DNA of 64,000 bases from Sulfurimonas sp. HSL-1716 (GTDB lineage Bacteria; Campylobacterota; Campylobacteria; Campylobacterales; Sulfurimonadaceae), in assembly GCF_039645975.1 (NCBI RefSeq), contig NZ_CP147918.1, forward strand, positions 62,001 through 126,000, read 5' to 3'. The notes under the pieces were generated by a model that saw nothing but the letters and a program-made list of their open reading frames with translations, was not told where the DNA came from and did no database searches. The position numbers and the translations under genes were made by a program. Positions 38,333-61,960 of this stretch are shown in pieces. Position 1 is the stretch's first letter. Every line of letters starts with the position of its first letter.

Positions 38333-38346
38333 TTGATTTACATCAA
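38333..38346. promoter_or_regulatory. FNR-type box (TTGATTTACATCAA), porin/regulator intergenic region
   Basis: A perfect TTGAT-N4-ATCAA palindrome, the consensus of FNR/DNR/NssR-type regulators. It has the right spacing to a perfect -10 for the porin. In the other direction the class II start would fall on the ATG of the regulator gene at 38381. Confidence 0.8.
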
Positions 38347-40081: not shown

Positions 40082-40095
40082 TTGATCTACATCAA
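40082..40095. promoter_or_regulatory. FNR-type box upstream of napA (TTGATCTACATCAA)
   Basis: A perfect TTGAT-N4-ATCAA palindrome. A -10-like TAGGAT (40118-40123) is centred exactly 32 nt from the box centre, so transcription of the nap operon should start near 40130, about 35 nt before the napA ATG. The ribosome site AGGGGAGGGA precedes the ATG. Confidence 0.82.
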
Positions 40096-53366: not shown

Positions 53367-53380
53367 TTGATGCAAATCAA
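53367..53380. promoter_or_regulatory. FNR-type box upstream of nirDL (TTGATGCAAATCAA)
   Basis: A perfect TTGAT-N4-ATCAA palindrome. TACAAT (53403-53408) is centred exactly 32 nt downstream of the box centre, giving a predicted transcript start near 53415 for the nirDL operon. Confidence 0.82.
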
Positions 53381-53432: not shown

Positions 53433-54452
53433 ATGTGGCTCATTATGAAACAAGAAGTACTTTCGCGGATCCAAAAATCATTCCCTTTAGTAGAAAGACC
53501 TTTTCGATCGATCGCCGAAGATCTGGGGATGAAAGAGGAAGATGTCCTTGCTATTTTACAAGAGGAAAAAAGCAAAAACATTATCCGCCAGACATCGGCC
53601 ATCTTCGATACCAAACGTTTAGGATACGTATCGTCGCTGGTGGCATTTAAAATAGACGAAGCCGATATCGACGAAGCTGTATCTATTATCAACTCCCATC
53701 CCGGGATATCGCATAACTATGAGCGTAACCATGAGTTCAATATCTGGTTTACGATAGCCGTTGCTCCCGATTCCAAACTGGGTTTGGAAAAAAGCGTGGA
53801 GATATTGGCTTCTTTGACAAAAGCCAAAAGCCATATAATCCTGCCGACACTCAAACTTTTTAAGATATCCGTAAAACTCGATACGACGGGAAAAGATGAA
53901 AAAAAAGAGAAAGTTAAAAAAGTAAAACACACCGAGATAGAGATGACTCCGCTTCATCATGCGATTATCAGACGTGTACAGTACGATATAGATATTGTAA
54001 GCGAGCCTTTTAAAAAGATCATAGATGAGCTGGACATCGATTACGATACTTTCTTCTCCATCTTAAAACAGCTGCAAAACGCAGGTGTCATGAGACGTTT
54101 TGCTTCGATACTCAATCATCGTAAGGCCGGATTTGGCGCCAATGCGATGGTAGTGTGGGACGTCGATCAGGAAAAAGGGGAAGCAGCAGGCGAGCAAGCG
54201 GCGGCATTTAGTGCCGTAAGCCACTGCTATTTACGACCGAAATACGAGAATTGGCCGTATAATCTTTTTACAATGATCCACGGCAAAACGAAAGAGGAGA
54301 CAAACGCTGTCATAGAAGAGATAGCAAATGAGATTGATGCCCGTTCTTATATGCCTCTTTATTCATCAAGAGAGTTCAAGAAAGTAAGAATAGAGTATTT
54401 TACGCCCGAGTTCGAAGCTTGGGAAAACCTACATGTAAAAGAGGAAGGATAA
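53433..54452 (+). CDS. nirDL: Fused NirDL-type siroheme decarboxylase (haem d1 biosynthesis)
   Basis: A 339-residue protein made of two Lrp/AsnC-like units, as in fused NirD-NirL: the first about 1-150 (IRQTSAIFDTKRLGYVSSLV, then YERNHEFNIWFTI), the second about 172-330 (VMRRFASILNHRKAGFGANA, HCYLRPKYENWPYNLFTMIH). These enzymes remove the acetate side-chain carboxyls of siroheme to didecarboxysiroheme. Separate nirG and nirH genes are not in the window, so this single fused enzyme may do the whole step. An alternative ATG lies at 53445; the choice is uncertain. It starts an operon with three small membrane proteins. Confidence 0.88.
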   Translation: MWLIMKQEVLSRIQKSFPLVERPFRSIAEDLGMKEEDVLAILQEEKSKNIIRQTSAIFDTKRLGYVSSLVAFKIDEADIDEAVSIINSHPGISHNYERNHEFNIWFTIAVAPDSKLGLEKSVEILASLTKAKSHIILPTLKLFKISVKLDTTGKDEKKEKVKKVKHTEIEMTPLHHAIIRRVQYDIDIVSEPFKKIIDELDIDYDTFFSILKQLQNAGVMRRFASILNHRKAGFGANAMVVWDVDQEKGEAAGEQAAAFSAVSHCYLRPKYENWPYNLFTMIHGKTKEETNAVIEEIANEIDARSYMPLYSSREFKKVRIEYFTPEFEAWENLHVKEEG

Positions 54453-54844
54453 TGGAACTTTTTTTTAGACTAGAGATCGCCTATATCGTCATAGGCATAT
54501 TCTTTTTGATCGTCACTGCGATAGTGACCACACAATCGACACTGCCGAAAAAATCTTTTAAATATGGAATGATCGGAGTGTTTGCGCTTTTTGCTATCAT
54601 GATCTCATTACATTATTATATTACCGTCAAACGTATGGACGGCGTCAAACAGATCTTTAACGACGGCGGTACCATCATCTGTGAGAACAAAATGCACAGA
54701 ACTATTTCCCAATCGGTTCTGATCTCGAAAAAATTCGAGTGGCGTCTTGAAGGAGATCTTTTCGTCTCGGATAATCATACGCGCTCTTTTCATACGTCAA
54801 GATGCGTAGATTATACTTCTATGATGCAGTCGGCGGAAAAATAA
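54452..54844 (+). CDS. Small inner membrane protein of unknown function
   Basis: A 130-residue protein with two N-terminal helices (about 8-28 and 38-56, AYIVIGIFFLIVTAIV and GMIGVFALFAIMISLHYYIT) and a soluble C-terminal domain with two cysteines (C76, C117). The ATG overlaps the nirDL stop by one base and has GAGGAAGG upstream. No family recognised. Co-transcription with nirDL suggests a part in denitrification. Confidence 0.72.
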   Translation: MELFFRLEIAYIVIGIFFLIVTAIVTTQSTLPKKSFKYGMIGVFALFAIMISLHYYITVKRMDGVKQIFNDGGTIICENKMHRTISQSVLISKKFEWRLEGDLFVSDNHTRSFHTSRCVDYTSMMQSAEK

Positions 54845-54853
54845 GCTTCTAAG

Positions 54854-55015
54854 ATGATGGCAGCACTTAAACGTTATCTTATTGCGTTATTGATTCTTGT
54901 TTTCATCGTTGCCTTGATGCTTGCCGGTACGTTTTTAGTAAAAGATTTAGGAGATAGAATGTTCAAAGATACAAATATTACTATAAAACCCATCGGCGAA
55001 AAGGTGGATCTATGA
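54854..55015 (+). CDS. 53-residue single-span membrane protein
   Basis: A short frame: MMAALKRYLIALLILVFIVA, then LMLAGTFLVKDLGDRM and a soluble tail ending IKPIGEKVDL. One strong transmembrane helix (about 9-30). Its last codons overlap the next gene's ATG (ATGA), and it begins 9 nt after the preceding gene, which is the coupling seen for real genes. No family recognised. Confidence 0.6.
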   Translation: MMAALKRYLIALLILVFIVALMLAGTFLVKDLGDRMFKDTNITIKPIGEKVDL

Positions 55016-55308
55016 ATCTTTATATTATTATCGCGGTAGGTATTGTCTTAAGTGTTATTTTCCATTTTATCGGCGTATATGCCAAAGCGAGAAATATCGT
55101 ATGGATAATGATCATATTGATGTGGGCCGGCTCCATCAGTTTTGCTATGAACGAAATCTCTCCCAAAGGGTATGATTATATAGACAAGATCAAAGGCAAA
55201 TATGCGGATGTGGATGCTTTGATAAATAAGGCTTCACCACATATTTCCATCTATGAAATGCTTGTAATACAAAAAAGTTATGACCAGCACGAAAAAACCG
55301 CGCATTAG
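55012..55308 (+). CDS. Small two-helix membrane protein of unknown function
   Basis: A 98-residue protein with two N-terminal helices (MNLYIIIAVGIVLSVIFHFI; ARNIVWIMIILMWAGSISFA) and a soluble C-terminal part (DKIKGKYADVDALINKASPH). No family recognised. It overlaps the 53-residue gene by 4 nt and the next gene by 29 nt. Confidence 0.7.
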   Translation: MNLYIIIAVGIVLSVIFHFIGVYAKARNIVWIMIILMWAGSISFAMNEISPKGYDYIDKIKGKYADVDALINKASPHISIYEMLVIQKSYDQHEKTAH

Positions 55309-56075: not shown

Positions 56076-56089
56076 TTGATTAATGTCAA
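56076..56089. promoter_or_regulatory. FNR-type box upstream of the nor genes (TTGATTAATGTCAA)
   Basis: TTGAT-N4-GTCAA, one mismatch from the perfect palindrome. A -10-like TAGACT (56112-56117) is centred exactly 32 nt from the box centre; transcription would start near 56124, before the 107-residue gene, norC and norB. Confidence 0.78.
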
Positions 56090-56161: not shown

Positions 56162-56485
56162 ATGATGGAATCAATGATTAGACCTGAAATAGCATTGAAT
56201 GATTTTCTGCCAATTTTTATTTCTTCAGCGTTTGTTTTAGTATTCGGATCGTTATATGTTGGTATATATACGGCAGTAAAGGTTAATATGCTAAAAAAAT
56301 GGGCAATGCCTCTGGCATACCTGTTTTGGTTTTTAACGTGTTATATGCTTTATATAATGGGTAGTTTAATGCATGTAGGAGAGTTTACAGCAAAAGTATT
56401 AGTAGTTGCAATGATAGGGTATCTGATACTTCCTCATGCAATCTATTATATGCAAAATCAAGTTCATGAAGAGAATGGACATTGA
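56162..56485 (+). CDS. Small three-helix membrane protein preceding norC
   Basis: A 107-residue membrane protein with three predicted helices (about 15-40, 46-70, 76-97), including PIFISSAFVLVFGSLYVGI and WAMPLAYLFWFLTCYMLYIM. Two histidines lie near the membrane edge (H71, H92). It is the first gene after the FNR-type box and 43 nt upstream of norC, so it is probably a Nor-associated subunit or assembly factor. No named family recognised. Confidence 0.75.
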   Translation: MMESMIRPEIALNDFLPIFISSAFVLVFGSLYVGIYTAVKVNMLKKWAMPLAYLFWFLTCYMLYIMGSLMHVGEFTAKVLVVAMIGYLILPHAIYYMQNQVHEENGH

Positions 56486-56528
56486 TTAGTGAATATTTTC
56501 AACAATTAATTTTAGTGGGGGGAAAATA

Positions 56529-57182
56529 GTGGCTAATAAATCTGTATGGAGTGACAATCGTTTCTGGCGAAGAACAGCAACGTGGGTTACGGGTTTTGCA
56601 TCAATTTTATTAATCTGGTTGACATTTGATACTTCGGGTCAAATCGCAATGGGTAATGATGCAGATTTAAAAAATGGTGTAACCAAAAGGGTTCCTGGAC
56701 CTACGGTTATCAATTATAAGATCACTTATGAAATGAGTCCGAAACGCGGGCATGAAGTTCCTGTGATCGGAGAGAAAGAGAAGTTTTTCGGAAGAGACGA
56801 CTACTCTGAAAAAGAAGCGACTGCGCTGTTACACTTAGGTAAACTGGCGGAGCAAGCTAAAAACTGTATGGATTGTCATACGCTATTGGGAAATGGAGCT
56901 TATTATGCGCCTGACCTTACAAAAGCGTGGTTGGATCCGGCTTGGGGACCAAACGGTTCAATGCAAGCGATGACAGGAAAAAACACAAGAGAAGAAGCGA
57001 TGGCTGAGTTCTTACAACATCCAAATCAGTATCCTACTCATGCACGTATGATGCCGGATCTTGGTATTACTGCTAAAGAGGCTAAAGGCTTAGTGGCTTT
57101 CCTTAAACATATGTCATCTATAGATACAAACGGTTTCCCAAGAAACTTCGGGAAAATGCAAGGAGCGATACATGGCAAATAA
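56529..57182 (+). CDS. norC: Nitric oxide reductase subunit C (NorC)
   Basis: A 217-residue membrane-anchored cytochrome c. The start codon is GTG with GGGGGGAAAA upstream. An N-terminal helix (about 17-33) precedes the periplasmic haem domain with C113-x2-C116-H117 (NCMDCHTLLGNGAYYAPDL) and an axial Met in ARMMPDLGI. It is longer than many NorC (about 150 residues) because of extra N-terminal residues after the membrane helix. It gives electrons to NorB, whose ATG it overlaps by 11 nt. Confidence 0.95.
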   Translation: MANKSVWSDNRFWRRTATWVTGFASILLIWLTFDTSGQIAMGNDADLKNGVTKRVPGPTVINYKITYEMSPKRGHEVPVIGEKEKFFGRDDYSEKEATALLHLGKLAEQAKNCMDCHTLLGNGAYYAPDLTKAWLDPAWGPNGSMQAMTGKNTREEAMAEFLQHPNQYPTHARMMPDLGITAKEAKGLVAFLKHMSSIDTNGFPRNFGKMQGAIHGK

Positions 57183-58611
57183 TTATTTAAAATCAGAATC
57201 AAAACAGTTAGCGACTTGGTATTTTACCTTTGCTGCTATCATCTTTGGTGCTCAATTAGTATTTGGTTTGGTCGTGGCTATTCAGTTCGTTGTACCAGGC
57301 TTTCTATATGGGGTCCTAGATTTTTCGATCGCAAGAATCCTGCATATTAATGCACTTGTCGTTTGGATGGTTTTTGCTATGTTCGGTTCCGTTTATTGGT
57401 TGTTACCAGACGAAACAGGTATCGAAACTGTCGGTATTAAACTCGGAAAACTGTTATTTTGGATCTTCGCAGCTGCTATAGTAGTCGTTGTTCTTGTATT
57501 CTTATTGGTTCAAGTCGGACCGGCAGACAACACAACTATTTGGTTTATTACGGAAGGTCGTGAGTATATCGAAGCGCCGCGTTGGGCAGACTGGGGTATC
57601 GTAGTTGTTGCTCTTGGATTTGTCGCCAACCTTTTCTTAACAGGAATGAAAGGCAGACAAACAGGTATCGTTACAGTTTTGATGGCTGATATGATAGCGT
57701 TCTCAGGTCTTTACCTTGCAGGTATGTTCTTTACAAATAACATCTCTGTCGATCAATACTGGTGGTGGTGGGTAATCCACTTATGGGTTGAGGCTACTTG
57801 GGAAGTCTTCGTCGGTTCTATCGCAGCTTATGGTCTGATCAAAATGATCGGTGCACATCGTCAAGTTGTTGAAATGTGGTTATGGATCGAAGTAGCTATG
57901 CTATTTGGTTCAGGTATCCTTGGTCTTGGACACCACTATTTCTGGATCGGTACACCTGAGTATTGGTGGGAGATCGGAGCATTGTTCTCTGCACTAGAAC
58001 CTCTGCCGCTTGTTGCTATGTTTATCCATGTTCTTTACGATTGGGGGAAAGAAACAGGTCTTCAAATGGCAGAAGTACACGAAGGACATAAAATTGAAGG
58101 TCATACTATCAATAATAAACCTGCGTTTACTTGGTTCGTTCTCAATGCGTTCGGTAACTTCTTGGGTGCTGGTATATGGGGATTCTTCCATACTCTACCT
58201 CAAGTAAACCTTTATACGCACGGTACACAGTTTACAGCAGCGCATGGTCACCTTGCGTTCTTTGGTGCTTATGCAACTATTCTTGTGGGAATGATGTACA
58301 TAGCTGTTCAGGGCAGCAACGGTATTAAAGTCTTAAATCATACTAAAGCATCTCTATGGGGTGTTTCTTTAATTACCGGAGGTGTTATGGGTATGACCAT
58401 CGCACTTACAATTGCAGGTTATGTTCAAGTTCTTGTTTCACGTGCACAAATGGGTGCGACATGGGCAGCATATTTTGACGGTCAAGACGGCGTTTGGTTC
58501 CAACAAGCTATGGATTGGAGACTTCTAATGGGTGTTGTAACATTCGTAGGATTCCTATTCTTGGCTAAAGACTTGTTAAGCACAGGAAAAAGTGCTGTTC
58601 ACATAAGATAA
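57172..58611 (+). CDS. norB: Nitric oxide reductase subunit B (cytochrome c-dependent type)
   Basis: A 479-residue multi-helix haem-copper superfamily subunit reducing 2 NO to N2O. It starts with helices YFTFAAIIFGAQLVFGLVVA and ILHINALVVWMVFAMFG; the non-haem iron/haem histidines are in HLWVEATWEVF, GLGHHYFWIG and HGHLAFFGAYA, and the conserved glutamates occur in WVEATWE. The short form with partner NorC indicates the cNOR type, not the quinol-dependent fusion type. Followed by a 50-residue membrane gene. Confidence 0.96.
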   Translation: MANNYLKSESKQLATWYFTFAAIIFGAQLVFGLVVAIQFVVPGFLYGVLDFSIARILHINALVVWMVFAMFGSVYWLLPDETGIETVGIKLGKLLFWIFAAAIVVVVLVFLLVQVGPADNTTIWFITEGREYIEAPRWADWGIVVVALGFVANLFLTGMKGRQTGIVTVLMADMIAFSGLYLAGMFFTNNISVDQYWWWWVIHLWVEATWEVFVGSIAAYGLIKMIGAHRQVVEMWLWIEVAMLFGSGILGLGHHYFWIGTPEYWWEIGALFSALEPLPLVAMFIHVLYDWGKETGLQMAEVHEGHKIEGHTINNKPAFTWFVLNAFGNFLGAGIWGFFHTLPQVNLYTHGTQFTAAHGHLAFFGAYATILVGMMYIAVQGSNGIKVLNHTKASLWGVSLITGGVMGMTIALTIAGYVQVLVSRAQMGATWAAYFDGQDGVWFQQAMDWRLLMGVVTFVGFLFLAKDLLSTGKSAVHIR

Positions 58612-58621
58612 GGAGATAAAA

Positions 58622-58774
58622 ATGTTTGAACCGTTTACAGACGTAGTGCCGAGCTTCTTCGGCACGTTGAATCAGGGACCATTGTTCTTAACGATTTTTC
58701 TTCACACTTTTATTGTACTTCCGATGATTTGGATTTACTTTCAAGAAAAAGCTCGTTTGAAAAATGAGAAGTAG
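58622..58774 (+). CDS. 50-residue single-span membrane protein after norB
   Basis: Begins MFEPFTDVVPSFFGTLNQGP, has one transmembrane helix (about 21-40, ending IWIYFQEK) and a charged tail (KARLKNEK). It starts 10 nt after norB with GGAGA as ribosome site and ends just before a strong terminator. It may be a small subunit or assembly partner of the nitric oxide reductase. No family recognised. Confidence 0.65.
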   Translation: MFEPFTDVVPSFFGTLNQGPLFLTIFLHTFIVLPMIWIYFQEKARLKNEK

Positions 58775-58777
58775 GTG

Positions 58778-58812
58778 ATAGGCCCTATAGGGGGGCCTAT
58801 TTAATTTTTTTT
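58778..58812 (+). terminator. Intrinsic terminator-like hairpin directly before nirS
   Basis: ATAGGCCC (58778-58785) pairs with GGGCCTAT (58793-58800) around a 7-nt loop, followed by TTAATTTTTTTT. It ends the nor transcript, yet nirS starts only 28 nt past the stem with its own ribosome site (AGAAGGAG), leaving no room for a normal promoter in between. Confidence 0.78.
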
Positions 58813-58827
58813 AGAAGGAGAAATAGA

Positions 58828-60465
58828 ATGAAGTTTAATAAATTAATTGTATCAGCTGCTGCTTTAGCGGTTGTTTCGTCAGGTCTATTAGCGGATACAT
58901 CTAATATGGATGTTGCAAAAGTGTTCGAGCGTGAGTGTCAAGGCTGTCACGGTCCTAACCATGAAGGTGGGGTCGGTGCGGATCTTCGCCCAGCAAAAAT
59001 CGCTAAGAAAAATACTTATATGTTGGCAGAAACTATCTTAAACGGTAGAGCCGGTACGGCAATGCCTCCGTTTAAAAACAAGTTCACTCAAGCAGATGCT
59101 GATAAAATGGTTGACTATCTACAACACTTTAAAGGCAGAAAAATCAAGCAACTGACTTTAGAAGAAGTTACAAAAGGCTGGAAACCGCTTCACGACAGAA
59201 TGGATTTCTTTAAAAAATATCCACATCCTGCAGATGTTAAAAAGAATACGGATATCGTATTCGTAACTGAGCGTGATGCTGCTCGTGTTGTTTTCTTAGA
59301 TGGTACGACAGGTAAACTATTGTCTAGACATCCTGCCGGATTTGCTGTACACGTTACGGTGACAAACAAACGTCTACCTCGTTACGCATACTCTATCTCA
59401 CGTTCAGGTCTTGTAACAATGTTCGACCTTAACACTCCGGGCCAACAAAAAGTTGCTCAATGTCAAGTCGGTAGTGAATCTCGCGGTCTTGCGGTTTCTC
59501 CAGACGGTAAATACCTAATGGCAGGTGACTATGTACCGGGCGGTGCTGTTTTAATGGACGCTATGACTCTAAAACCGCTTAAAGTGTATCCTACTTCAAG
59601 TGTTATTGATACTGAAGGTAACATCGGTTCATCTCGTGTAGCTGGTGTTTATGATACTCCATACGGTCCATACATCGCATTTGCACTTAAAGATGCAGGT
59701 CATGTTTATATCGTAGACTACTCTAAACCAAACTATCCGATCGTTGGTGATATTCCAAATATCGGTAAAATTCTTCATGACGGTTTCGAAAATGAAGGTA
59801 AAGAGATCGGTCGTTACTTATTCCAAGCTTCTCAAGGAAGCGACGTAATGGGTGTTGTCGATTTTAAAACAAAATCATTAGTTGCTAAAGTTTATACTGG
59901 TCCTGGAACTAAGCCACACCCAGGTCAAGGAAGCTCTTGGTATAACAAAGACTACGGACAACTTGCGGCTACTAACAGTATGAACGTCGGTGATGTCGTT
60001 ATCTGGGACAGTAACTGGGATGTTGTTAAACATATCCGTACAGCAGGCGGTGGATTGTTCATCGGAACAAGCGAGCATACTCCGTTCTTATGGTCAGACA
60101 ACGTAATCGGCGGACCGTCAGCTTGGAACAAAGTACACTTGATCAACAAACAAACTCTTGAACTTGACCGTATCATTACAGTCGGTACAAAAGAGGGAAC
60201 AGTTACTGATGCTGCAAGTCATAAAGTTCTTTACAAATGGAAAGTTCCTACTGTAAAAGATGCTAAAGGCAACCCGGTTATTCCAAGAATCCTACATGCT
60301 GAACCGGCTAACCATGGTATGTGGACTATGATCTCTGAGTGGAATGCAGGTCGTATCGGTGTTTATGATTCTAAAACAGGTAAATTCATTAAATACATCG
60401 AAGGATTAACTACACCAACATTTACTTACTCTATCGAGCATAGACAATCAGTTCCTGGTGCATAA
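58828..60465 (+). CDS. nirS: Cytochrome cd1 nitrite reductase
   Basis: A 545-residue periplasmic enzyme reducing nitrite to NO. Signal peptide MKFNKLIVSAAALAVVSSGL then LA. The c-type haem domain has C37-x2-C40-H41 (CQGCH) and an axial Met in GTAMPPF (M79). The eight-bladed haem d1 propeller carries the proximal ligand H175 (GFAVHVTV) and both distal catalytic histidines, H317 (KILHDG) and H364 (KPHPGQG), by comparison with the Pseudomonas enzyme. All functional residues I could check are present. It stands between two hairpins (58778-58800 and 60476-60495). Confidence 0.96.
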   Translation: MKFNKLIVSAAALAVVSSGLLADTSNMDVAKVFERECQGCHGPNHEGGVGADLRPAKIAKKNTYMLAETILNGRAGTAMPPFKNKFTQADADKMVDYLQHFKGRKIKQLTLEEVTKGWKPLHDRMDFFKKYPHPADVKKNTDIVFVTERDAARVVFLDGTTGKLLSRHPAGFAVHVTVTNKRLPRYAYSISRSGLVTMFDLNTPGQQKVAQCQVGSESRGLAVSPDGKYLMAGDYVPGGAVLMDAMTLKPLKVYPTSSVIDTEGNIGSSRVAGVYDTPYGPYIAFALKDAGHVYIVDYSKPNYPIVGDIPNIGKILHDGFENEGKEIGRYLFQASQGSDVMGVVDFKTKSLVAKVYTGPGTKPHPGQGSSWYNKDYGQLAATNSMNVGDVVIWDSNWDVVKHIRTAGGGLFIGTSEHTPFLWSDNVIGGPSAWNKVHLINKQTLELDRIITVGTKEGTVTDAASHKVLYKWKVPTVKDAKGNPVIPRILHAEPANHGMWTMISEWNAGRIGVYDSKTGKFIKYIEGLTTPTFTYSIEHRQSVPGA

Positions 60466-60536: not shown

Positions 60537-60842
60537 ATGAAAAAATATTTTATTGTTATACTTGCTTTTTGTTCACTTGTACAAGCTGGATCGTTAGACG
60601 GAAAAAAGGTTTTTGAAACATATTGCTGGGGCTGTCATCATCAAACTGCGATGGCTTTCGGACCACCCTTCACACAGATAGCCAAAAAACGTACGCTCGA
60701 AGAGATCGAGGCTTATATTACGAGTCCTAAATCGATGTATAAAGCGTTTGGCTATAAACGAACAGCGATGAGCCAGTTGAATTTAACCGATAAAGAAAAA
60801 GAGACAGTTGCCAAATATATTCTTTCATTCAAAGGAAAATAA
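60537..60842 (+). CDS. Small c-type cytochrome (NirC/NirM-like)
   Basis: A 101-residue monohaem cytochrome with signal peptide MKKYFIVILAFCSLVQAGSL and haem motif C30-x2-C33-H34 (ETYCWGCHH); an axial Met lies in TAMSQLN. By position and size it is the probable electron donor to NirS or a NirC-like helper in haem d1 insertion. It overlaps nirJ by one base. Confidence 0.85.
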   Translation: MKKYFIVILAFCSLVQAGSLDGKKVFETYCWGCHHQTAMAFGPPFTQIAKKRTLEEIEAYITSPKSMYKAFGYKRTAMSQLNLTDKEKETVAKYILSFKGK

Positions 60843-61960
60843 TGTTTAGGCTGTCAAACTTAATAGCATCTGTCGTCGAAGACAAGCCGGAGCGGAATCT
60901 AAACGGTACGATAGCGATCTGGAACTTTACAAACAGGTGTAATCTTTCATGTCTGCATTGTTACTCCAAGTCTACTTTAGACGAGGTCGATACGCTGACT
61001 ACCGAGCAGATCAAAAAAACGATCCTGCAGATGAAAGAGAACGGGATCAAGTTTATTATCTTTTCGGGTGGGGAACCTTTAACAAGAAAAGATATCTTTG
61101 AGATCGCCGATTTTTGTAAAGAGAACGGAATCATTACGTATCTTTCGAGTAACGGATTGTACTTTACCACGAAAAACGTGCAAAAGATAGTAGATACGTT
61201 CAATTATGTCGGTATCAGTATAGACGGGGATGAAGAAACGCATGATTATTTCCGCGGACTAAAAGGTGCTTTTAAAGAAACCCTAAAAGCGGTTCTGCTG
61301 GCGAATTCGACCGGAGCAAAAGTCGGGATCCGTTTTACAATGACAAAAGACACTATAGACTCTTTGGAGTATATCTTCGATCTGGCGGAAAAAAACAATA
61401 TTCCCAAAATATATATATCGCATCTCGTCTATTCGGGACGCGGGCTTGACAATTTGAAGATGGATCTGACAAAAGAACAAAGACGCAAAGCCGTCGAGTT
61501 TATTTTGAAAAAAGCGTTCGAGTATTATAAAACAAAAAGAGATATCGAGATCGTTACGGGGAACATGGAACAAGACGCCGTCTTGTTCTTAAACGAGTTT
61601 TCAAAACATTACCCGGAGCTAAAAGAGAAGATGAGAGACAGACTGGTAAAATGGGGCGGAAACAGTGCGGGAAGAAAACTTTTAAATATAAACAGTGAAG
61701 GAGATGTTCGTCCTGATCCGTTTTTTCCGGTGCTCATAGGCAATATAATTAACGAAGATTTTGGTACTATATGGCAAAAAGGAGAGCTTCTGGACAGATT
61801 AAGGATACATCCGCGGGAATTATCCGGAATATGCGCCGATTGTCAGCAGATAGATATATGCAACGGCGGTTCACGTGCGAGGGCTTTTGCCATGAGCGGT
61901 GATTTATGGAGCGAAGACCCGTCGTGTTACTTAACTTTAGAAGAAAGAAGGATAGATTAA
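60842..61960 (+). CDS. nirJ: Haem d1 biosynthesis radical SAM protein NirJ
   Basis: A 372-residue radical SAM enzyme acting on didecarboxysiroheme to remove propionate side chains and introduce oxo groups on the way to haem d1. The [4Fe-4S]/SAM motif is C33-x3-C37-x2-C40 (RCNLSCLHCYS), followed by FSGGEPLTRKDIF. The SPASM-like C-terminal cysteines are C331, C334, C340 and C362. It overlaps nirF by one base. Confidence 0.92.
   Translation: MFRLSNLIASVVEDKPERNLNGTIAIWNFTNRCNLSCLHCYSKSTLDEVDTLTTEQIKKTILQMKENGIKFIIFSGGEPLTRKDIFEIADFCKENGIITYLSSNGLYFTTKNVQKIVDTFNYVGISIDGDEETHDYFRGLKGAFKETLKAVLLANSTGAKVGIRFTMTKDTIDSLEYIFDLAEKNNIPKIYISHLVYSGRGLDNLKMDLTKEQRRKAVEFILKKAFEYYKTKRDIEIVTGNMEQDAVLFLNEFSKHYPELKEKMRDRLVKWGGNSAGRKLLNINSEGDVRPDPFFPVLIGNIINEDFGTIWQKGELLDRLRIHPRELSGICADCQQIDICNGGSRARAFAMSGDLWSEDPSCYLTLEERRID

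Follow-up and report, generated by a model that had tools for sequence, protein, structure and literature searches.

The four plus-strand genes that lie between an FNR-type box and nirS in the window (the whole stretch of DNA that was analysed, 64,000 nucleotides) probably encode a nitric oxide reductase of the cNOR type that belongs to the "ancestral" clade lacking norQD, with NorH as a bound subunit, the product of orf50 as a further subunit or assembly factor, an FeB site that is filled without NorQD, and expression as one FNR-controlled unit. In such an enzyme, NorH and orf50 would both bind to NorCB. The sampled cNORs split sharply into a NorQD type, whose NorB carries an acidic pair, and a NorH type, whose NorB does not.

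Gene order and promoter

The operon begins with orf107 (56162-56485), which encodes a protein of 107 residues with three transmembrane helices, and continues with norC (56529-57182), which has a GTG start, norB (57172-58611) and orf50 (58622-58774). The first-pass annotation had described norCB as bracketed by two small genes, an arrangement that is borne out by the 107-residue frame 5′ of norC and the 50-residue frame 3′ of norB, all on the plus strand and closely spaced: a gap of 43 bp separates orf107 from norC, norC and norB overlap by 11 bp, and orf50 starts after a gap of 10 bp. Ahead of orf107, at 56076-56089 (+), is an FNR/NnrR-type box, TTGATTAATGTCAA, which was located by pattern scan and is conserved in the class of the window's organism (hereafter, the class). 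Behind orf50, at 58777-58801 (+), is a terminator-like hairpin of 10 pairs followed by a T run, and a gene for a nirS-type cytochrome cd1 nitrite reductase (58828-60465, +) lies directly downstream.

A single unit running from the FNR-type box to the terminator had also been proposed, and the convincing part of the support for it is the conservation of the box. The pattern TTGAYN4RTCAA, which was widened after the best matches of an earlier scan had been seen, occurs 42-96 bp upstream of the orf107 start in all but one of 24 class members (23 of 24), where dinucleotide shuffles would give 0.06; the one member that lacks it (L058) has an uncertain start codon. In the window alone, FNR-type boxes with up to two mismatches occur about as often as chance predicts (68 against 62.8), and sites combining a hairpin with a T run number five in the region against a mean of 2.2 in shuffles. 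The conserved box and gene order thus suggest that the four genes would be expressed together, from a promoter beside nirS that is under FNR-family control, and that NO would be removed where and when it is made.

Other features of the neighborhood can be listed alongside. Perfect TTGATN4ATCAA boxes also occur at 53367-53380, 40082-40095 and 38333-38346, the first of them just 5′ of a regulator-like gene at 53433 that by eye resembles NirDLGH. Between this gene and a ThyD/YfcH-like gene at 55280 are three small open reading frames (54419-55308; up to 141, 53 and 98 residues) with hydrophobic segments, for which Pfam and NCBIfam returned sub-threshold matches only. After nirS, at 60537-61960, come a gene for a small cytochrome c and one for a radical SAM (NirJ-like) protein; the Thermus cluster has both types 3′ of nirS as well, in reversed order. 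The term epsilonproteobacterial in the first-pass annotation agrees with the nap cluster that is present in the window and with the napAGHBFLD operon described for Sulfurimonas in PMC4584964.

NorCB and the NorH homologue

NorB of the window aligns with Pseudomonas NorB (3o0r) over residues 3-458 of 479, with an E value of 5.9e-98, and its motifs HLWVEATWE and GHHYFWIG fall in register with those of the Pseudomonas protein. These motifs hold the H207/H258/H259-type FeB ligands and the E211/E215-type glutamates. NorC has one CxxCH haem motif (CMDCH) and scores above the Pfam cut-off as a cytochrome c; its N-terminal hydrophobic segment is visible by eye and lies below the helix-prediction threshold. 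By homology with cNORs, for which the reaction is established, NorC would take electrons from a periplasmic cytochrome c and pass them to haem b and the haem b3-FeB center in NorB, where NO would be reduced to N2O.

Both subunits resemble their Thermus thermophilus counterparts. NorB is 52.7% identical to the NorB encoded on Thermus thermophilus plasmids, as against approximately 38% to rhizobial NorB, and NorC shares 53% identity with Thermus NorC over 208 residues, the extra N-terminal helix of the latter being absent. A NorB at least 64% identical to that of the window was found in 25 of 200 genomes drawn from the class. In a tree of 79 NorBs built by a quick method (25 from the class, 25 from loci in which norH comes last, 18 of 56 other loci and 11 canonical), a branch with a support of 100 separates the canonical proteins from the NorH clade, and each of these four groups lies on one side of a branch with a support of 96-100. 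Sampling every third of the 56 gave 19 loci, one of which was dropped for want of a complete frame, and the program warned of long branches meeting between L149, L150 and the NorH clade.

That NorCB is the only NO reductase of this genome was considered and dropped, given a gNOR-like candidate at another locus (L004; G000:C1:1252809-1257257). By eye, its COX1-like protein P0008 has DLVAD where cNOR has HLWVE, and the neighboring P0009 is a cupredoxin-like partner. The pair may be the gNOR that is listed for Sulfurimonas in PMC8756737 and, if so, a second NO reductase in the genome. The norGH genes named in the available text of PMC8906906 are gNOR genes and are distinct from Thermus NorH.

The first-pass annotation had called the 107-residue protein uncharacterised. 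Judged by its sequence, orf107 is a homologue of NorH, the third subunit of the "ancestral" cNOR, which has been described in Thermus, and the label therefore does not hold; orf107 adds a member to a described family, at a different place in the operon. A direct blastp comparison with Thermus NorH (P0005; 98 residues, hydrophobic) is weak (E 0.008), and it is through profiles and intermediates that the two are linked. A profile built from 25 NorHs outside the class (Thermales, Aquificota, Chloroflexota and Methylacidiphilum) recovers, at E ≤ 1e-3, every one of the 24 class orf107 proteins as well as 53 of the remaining 56 nor loci from outside, and hhalign relates the class orf107 family to the outside NorH family with a probability of 98.4% (E 8.4e-15). 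The size of approximately 100 residues, the three membrane helices and the position beside norCB of the ancestral clade are likewise those of NorH. The three helices, claimed earlier from the letters of the DNA, reappear as three long helices in the AlphaFold model (pLDDT 92).

In the class, orf107 accompanies this NorB at 24 of 25 loci; the exception, G198, has a contig that ends just 5′ of norB. The best other match across the 200 class genomes has an E value of 0.0013, and pN/pS is 0.05-0.33 in nine pair comparisons. NorH adjoins norCB wherever it is found and occurs with this NorB clade in five other phyla, with norH before norC in the class and in Pseudomonadota and after norB in Thermales, Aquificota, Chloroflexota and Methylacidiphilum. 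In the 11 canonical nor loci, NorH gave no match at E 0.01. There was likewise no profile match in three of the 80 loci outside the class (L118, L130 and L133), where a listing of hydrophobic frames 5′ of norC produced no norH candidate; NorH may thus be dispensable. These three loci, all titled Methylococcaceae, belong to the NorH clade and offer a natural test of that dispensability.

Comparisons beyond the nor loci were uninformative as to kinship. Pfam and NCBIfam give orf107 no name (two sub-threshold Pfam matches, E 0.098 and 0.43), PDB sequences match the NorH alignment at chance level only (ArcB, 0.029; ATP synthase c subunit, 0.24), and the window NorH model returned a best E of 3.7 in Foldseek and nothing above Z 7.9, mostly helical bundles, in VIA-align. 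Chain D of the E. coli bo3 structure 8f6c, at Z 4.6, was rejected as a relative. An identity of NorH with NorF is also unsupported, hhalign against five NorFs detecting no profile similarity for either NorH or orf50 (probability ≤0.4%, E 0.17-0.62).

In Thermus, NorH reportedly co-purifies with NorCB. Elsewhere the enzyme is called heterotrimeric NorCBH (PMC5748679) and NorH is listed as a small subunit (PMC5015936), in the accessible portions of both papers. By analogy, NorH of the window would span the membrane with three helices and remain attached to NorCB as a subunit, its membership being assigned by homology. A literature search for NorH in combination with NO reductase, norC, denitrification, Sulfurimonas and other genera found it named only for Thermus, and reviews on Campylobacterota and Sulfurimonas, in the passages available, mention NO reductase and not NorH.

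FeB insertion and the possible role of orf50

In Paracoccus, NorQ and NorD are required for FeB, whereas qNOR does without helper genes, and the NorB variants D220A and E222A retain approximately 4% of activity and 24-28% of non-haem iron, from which it was proposed that NorD binds at D220/E222 (Kahle et al., 2023, PMC9976466, accessible text). All 11 canonical NorBs have the acidic pair, both residues together, which occurs in none of 104 NorBs of the NorH clade (25 from the class, one from the Thermus plasmid and 78 of 80 other loci, L117 and L122 having no complete frame). Window NorB has H and Q at these positions, reading GAHRQ against the canonical G(V/I)DRE. Within the clade, E alone occurs in 7 of 104, D alone in 1 of 104, and Lys or Arg occupies the second position in 84 of 104 (motif table).

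The assignment of D220 and E222 to the D and E of GVDRE comes from our own alignment and from this one Paracoccus study, in its available text. The numbering offset sets Paracoccus E198 equal to Pseudomonas E211, and with it the letters D and E both fit; the FeB histidines given as 253/254 in PMC9976466 do not. Because the protein starts differ, this D carries the number 220 in Roseibium, 226 in G129 and 212 in another three canonical NorBs.

The absence of norQ, norD and norF from the vicinity, remarked on earlier, extends to the genome of the window's organism (one contig, 99.84% complete), where none of the three gave a match, although the NorF query is weak and also missed G175. The NorQ marker CbbQ_C is absent as well, and the only NorE-like protein met is a COX3 beside a CtaD-like subunit. 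Across the 200 class genomes, CbbQ_C occurs in two, G129 and G175 (among 14 control genomes it was positive in one in the window-genome search and in none in the class search; the positives were G129 and G175). Among 26 genomes, the NorD query finds the same two. The NorQ query matches both strongly and ten others weakly (E 2.5e-6 or worse; window's genome, none), and the NorF query finds G129 only. The genomes with NorQ marker and NorD are exactly the two with a canonical norCB. G175 has canonical norB only. G129, from the same family as the window's organism (loci L149 and L006), has one operon of either type, with separate partners: a NorH-type norCB with orf50 and a canonical operon in the order norC-norB-norD-norQ-norE-norF, which adjoins a divergent regulator gene that by eye is Rrf2-like.

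At the level of loci, NorQ and NorD queries taken from one of the 11 canonical loci match 11 of 11 canonical loci and 0 of 105 clade loci (0/25 in the class, searched to 1.5 kb beyond norB, and 0/80 elsewhere, searched to as much as 5 kb, less at contig ends). A NorD-free state of the whole clade does not fully hold at the genome level: of the genomes behind 26 of the 80 loci outside the class, 18 are without a NorD-like protein and eight have a NorD-like match. Seven of the eight matches cover the C-terminal part only and lie in open frames of 712-841 residues, the size of the RuBisCO-activating CbbO, which suggests that they are CbbO. The remaining one, a 655-residue frame in G224 (L138), could be a true NorD.

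With NorQ and NorD undetected and no acidic pair in NorB, FeB would be loaded in this enzyme without the two proteins. Independence from NorQD looks like a property of this NorB lineage, and the clade NorB may load iron by itself, as qNOR is described to do in the available text of PMC9976466. Absence of NorQD from some cNORs is probably already in print in Appelgren & Adelroth (2025), which is cited for cNORs without chaperones in the accessible part of PMC13036017; the point about the acidic pair is perhaps there too.

NorH and orf50 could instead be chaperones that replace NorQ and NorD, loading FeB or holding apo-NorB open for iron, rather than permanent subunits, much as the first-pass annotation suggested in proposing that the small proteins substitute for the usual accessory factors. 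We judge the substitution possible but unlikely. Genes for NorQ and NorD are absent where NorH and orf50 occur, the 11 canonical loci lack NorH, G129 keeps each operon type with its own partners, and His and Glu are abundant in the tails of many NorHs; but the tail histidine is absent in several class members (for example L015, L018, L019 and L023), and recognisable NorH is missing from 3 of 80 loci. Moreover, a NorB without the NorD-sensitive pair may need no NorQD and perhaps no replacement, just as qNOR needs no helper genes (PMC9976466, in part), and NorH is described as a subunit of the Thermus enzyme in the accessible text of PMC5748679 and PMC5015936. A bolder proposal, which seems to us doubtful, is that NorH-type cNORs are a separate, self-sufficient assembly lineage in which NorH, together with orf50 in the class, does the iron loading or gate holding of NorQD, contact with NorD having been lost or never evolved. 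If true, denitrifiers would have two independent routes of FeB insertion for one enzyme, both of them in G129.

On the preferred reading of a norQD-free cNOR with small subunits, orf50, to judge from where it lies, how well it is conserved and how short it is, is most likely an additional small subunit in the membrane or an assembly factor. It lies directly behind norB in 25 of 25 class loci and in 0 of 80 loci elsewhere, and is thus restricted to the class within the sample. The best other match across the 200 class genomes has an E value of 0.0019, and in loci from other phyla the orf50 profile has no match with an E value of 1 or better. A scan of hydrophobic frames 3′ of norB in 78 of the 80 non-class loci (L117 and L122 left out; five loci end within 300 bp of norB) gave no equivalent. 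The gene is under purifying selection, with pN/pS of 0.02-0.26 for nine of the ten pairs compared (the tenth, which has hardly any changes, gives 0.50), and positions invariant in 25 sequences comprise D, L, QGP, LT, LH, PM, Y and EK. Pfam, NCBIfam and PDB sequences hold no match, and orf50 looks new as far as these family and PDB-sequence searches and those of genomes and literature reach.

The protein has one hydrophobic helix, and according to the positive-inside rule its N-terminus would be outside and its Lys-rich C-terminus inside, with the helix packing against NorB. A Cys pair, 4-6 residues apart, precedes the helix in 11 of 25 sequences (the other 14 have no such pair and no single Cys there; a lone Cys occurs in 0 of 25), a possible sign of a periplasmic disulfide. 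That orf50 is part of NorH is unsupported.

It seems quite improbable that orf50 takes the place of the additional N-terminal membrane helix of Thermus-type NorC, which is absent from class NorC. At 25 of 25 loci where norH follows norB, NorC has two predicted N-terminal helices; elsewhere it has at most one, which in the class often falls below threshold, and orf50 would add one helix; however, Pseudomonadota NorC also has at most one predicted helix, yet no orf50-like gene accompanies it. Nor does orf50 appear to be a copy of the NorC anchor, blastp against Thermus NorC finding nothing. That the small genes are ordinary neighbors carried along with the operon, with no role in NO reduction, is very hard to reconcile with a shared promoter box, with residues that do not vary, with purifying selection and with a gene order that is maintained across six family codes of the class. 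The conservation of the two small genes with norCB that was anticipated earlier is thus seen in the class nor loci searched (25/25 for the 50-residue protein, 24/25 for the 107-residue protein), and neither norQ nor norD came to light elsewhere in the genome.

Comparison with known nitric oxide reductases

The closest described system is norCBH of Thermus thermophilus (Bricio et al., 2014, considered here through the accessible text of PMC5748679 and PMC5015936). NorB and NorC are each 53% identical to those of the window, a NorH homologue is shared, and there too no norQD lies within an 11.4-kb stretch, while nirS and a radical SAM gene follow downstream in the order norC-norB-norH-nirS-nirJ (gene names from PMC5748679, in part). 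Differences lie in the position of norH, which comes after norB in Thermus and before norC in the window, in the extra N-terminal helix of Thermus NorC, and in orf50, which was not seen in Thermus.

The canonical norCBQD(EF) operons of Paracoccus, Pseudomonas and rhizobia share homologous NorC and NorB with the same haem and FeB ligand motifs. They differ in carrying the D220/E222 pair, in having neither NorH nor orf50 in the 11 loci, and in the need for NorQ/NorD to provide FeB that is described for Paracoccus in the available part of PMC9976466. NorF of norEF is likewise small, hydrophobic and encoded beside norCB, and it differs in showing no detectable profile similarity to NorH or orf50 (hhalign ≤0.4%, five NorFs).

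Operons of the NorH clade, in five named phyla and that of the window, break the linkage of norQ and norD to norCB that is stated to be constant in the accessible text of the review PMC8139620. Since these operons lack norQD and their NorB lacks the acidic pair, an ATPase-free entry of FeB could be tested by swaps between the enzyme types. The operon also adds to a key N2O-producing enzyme a conserved 50-residue protein that is nameless in the family libraries searched, and norH before norC, together with orf50, provides a marker for the NO reductase of the class.
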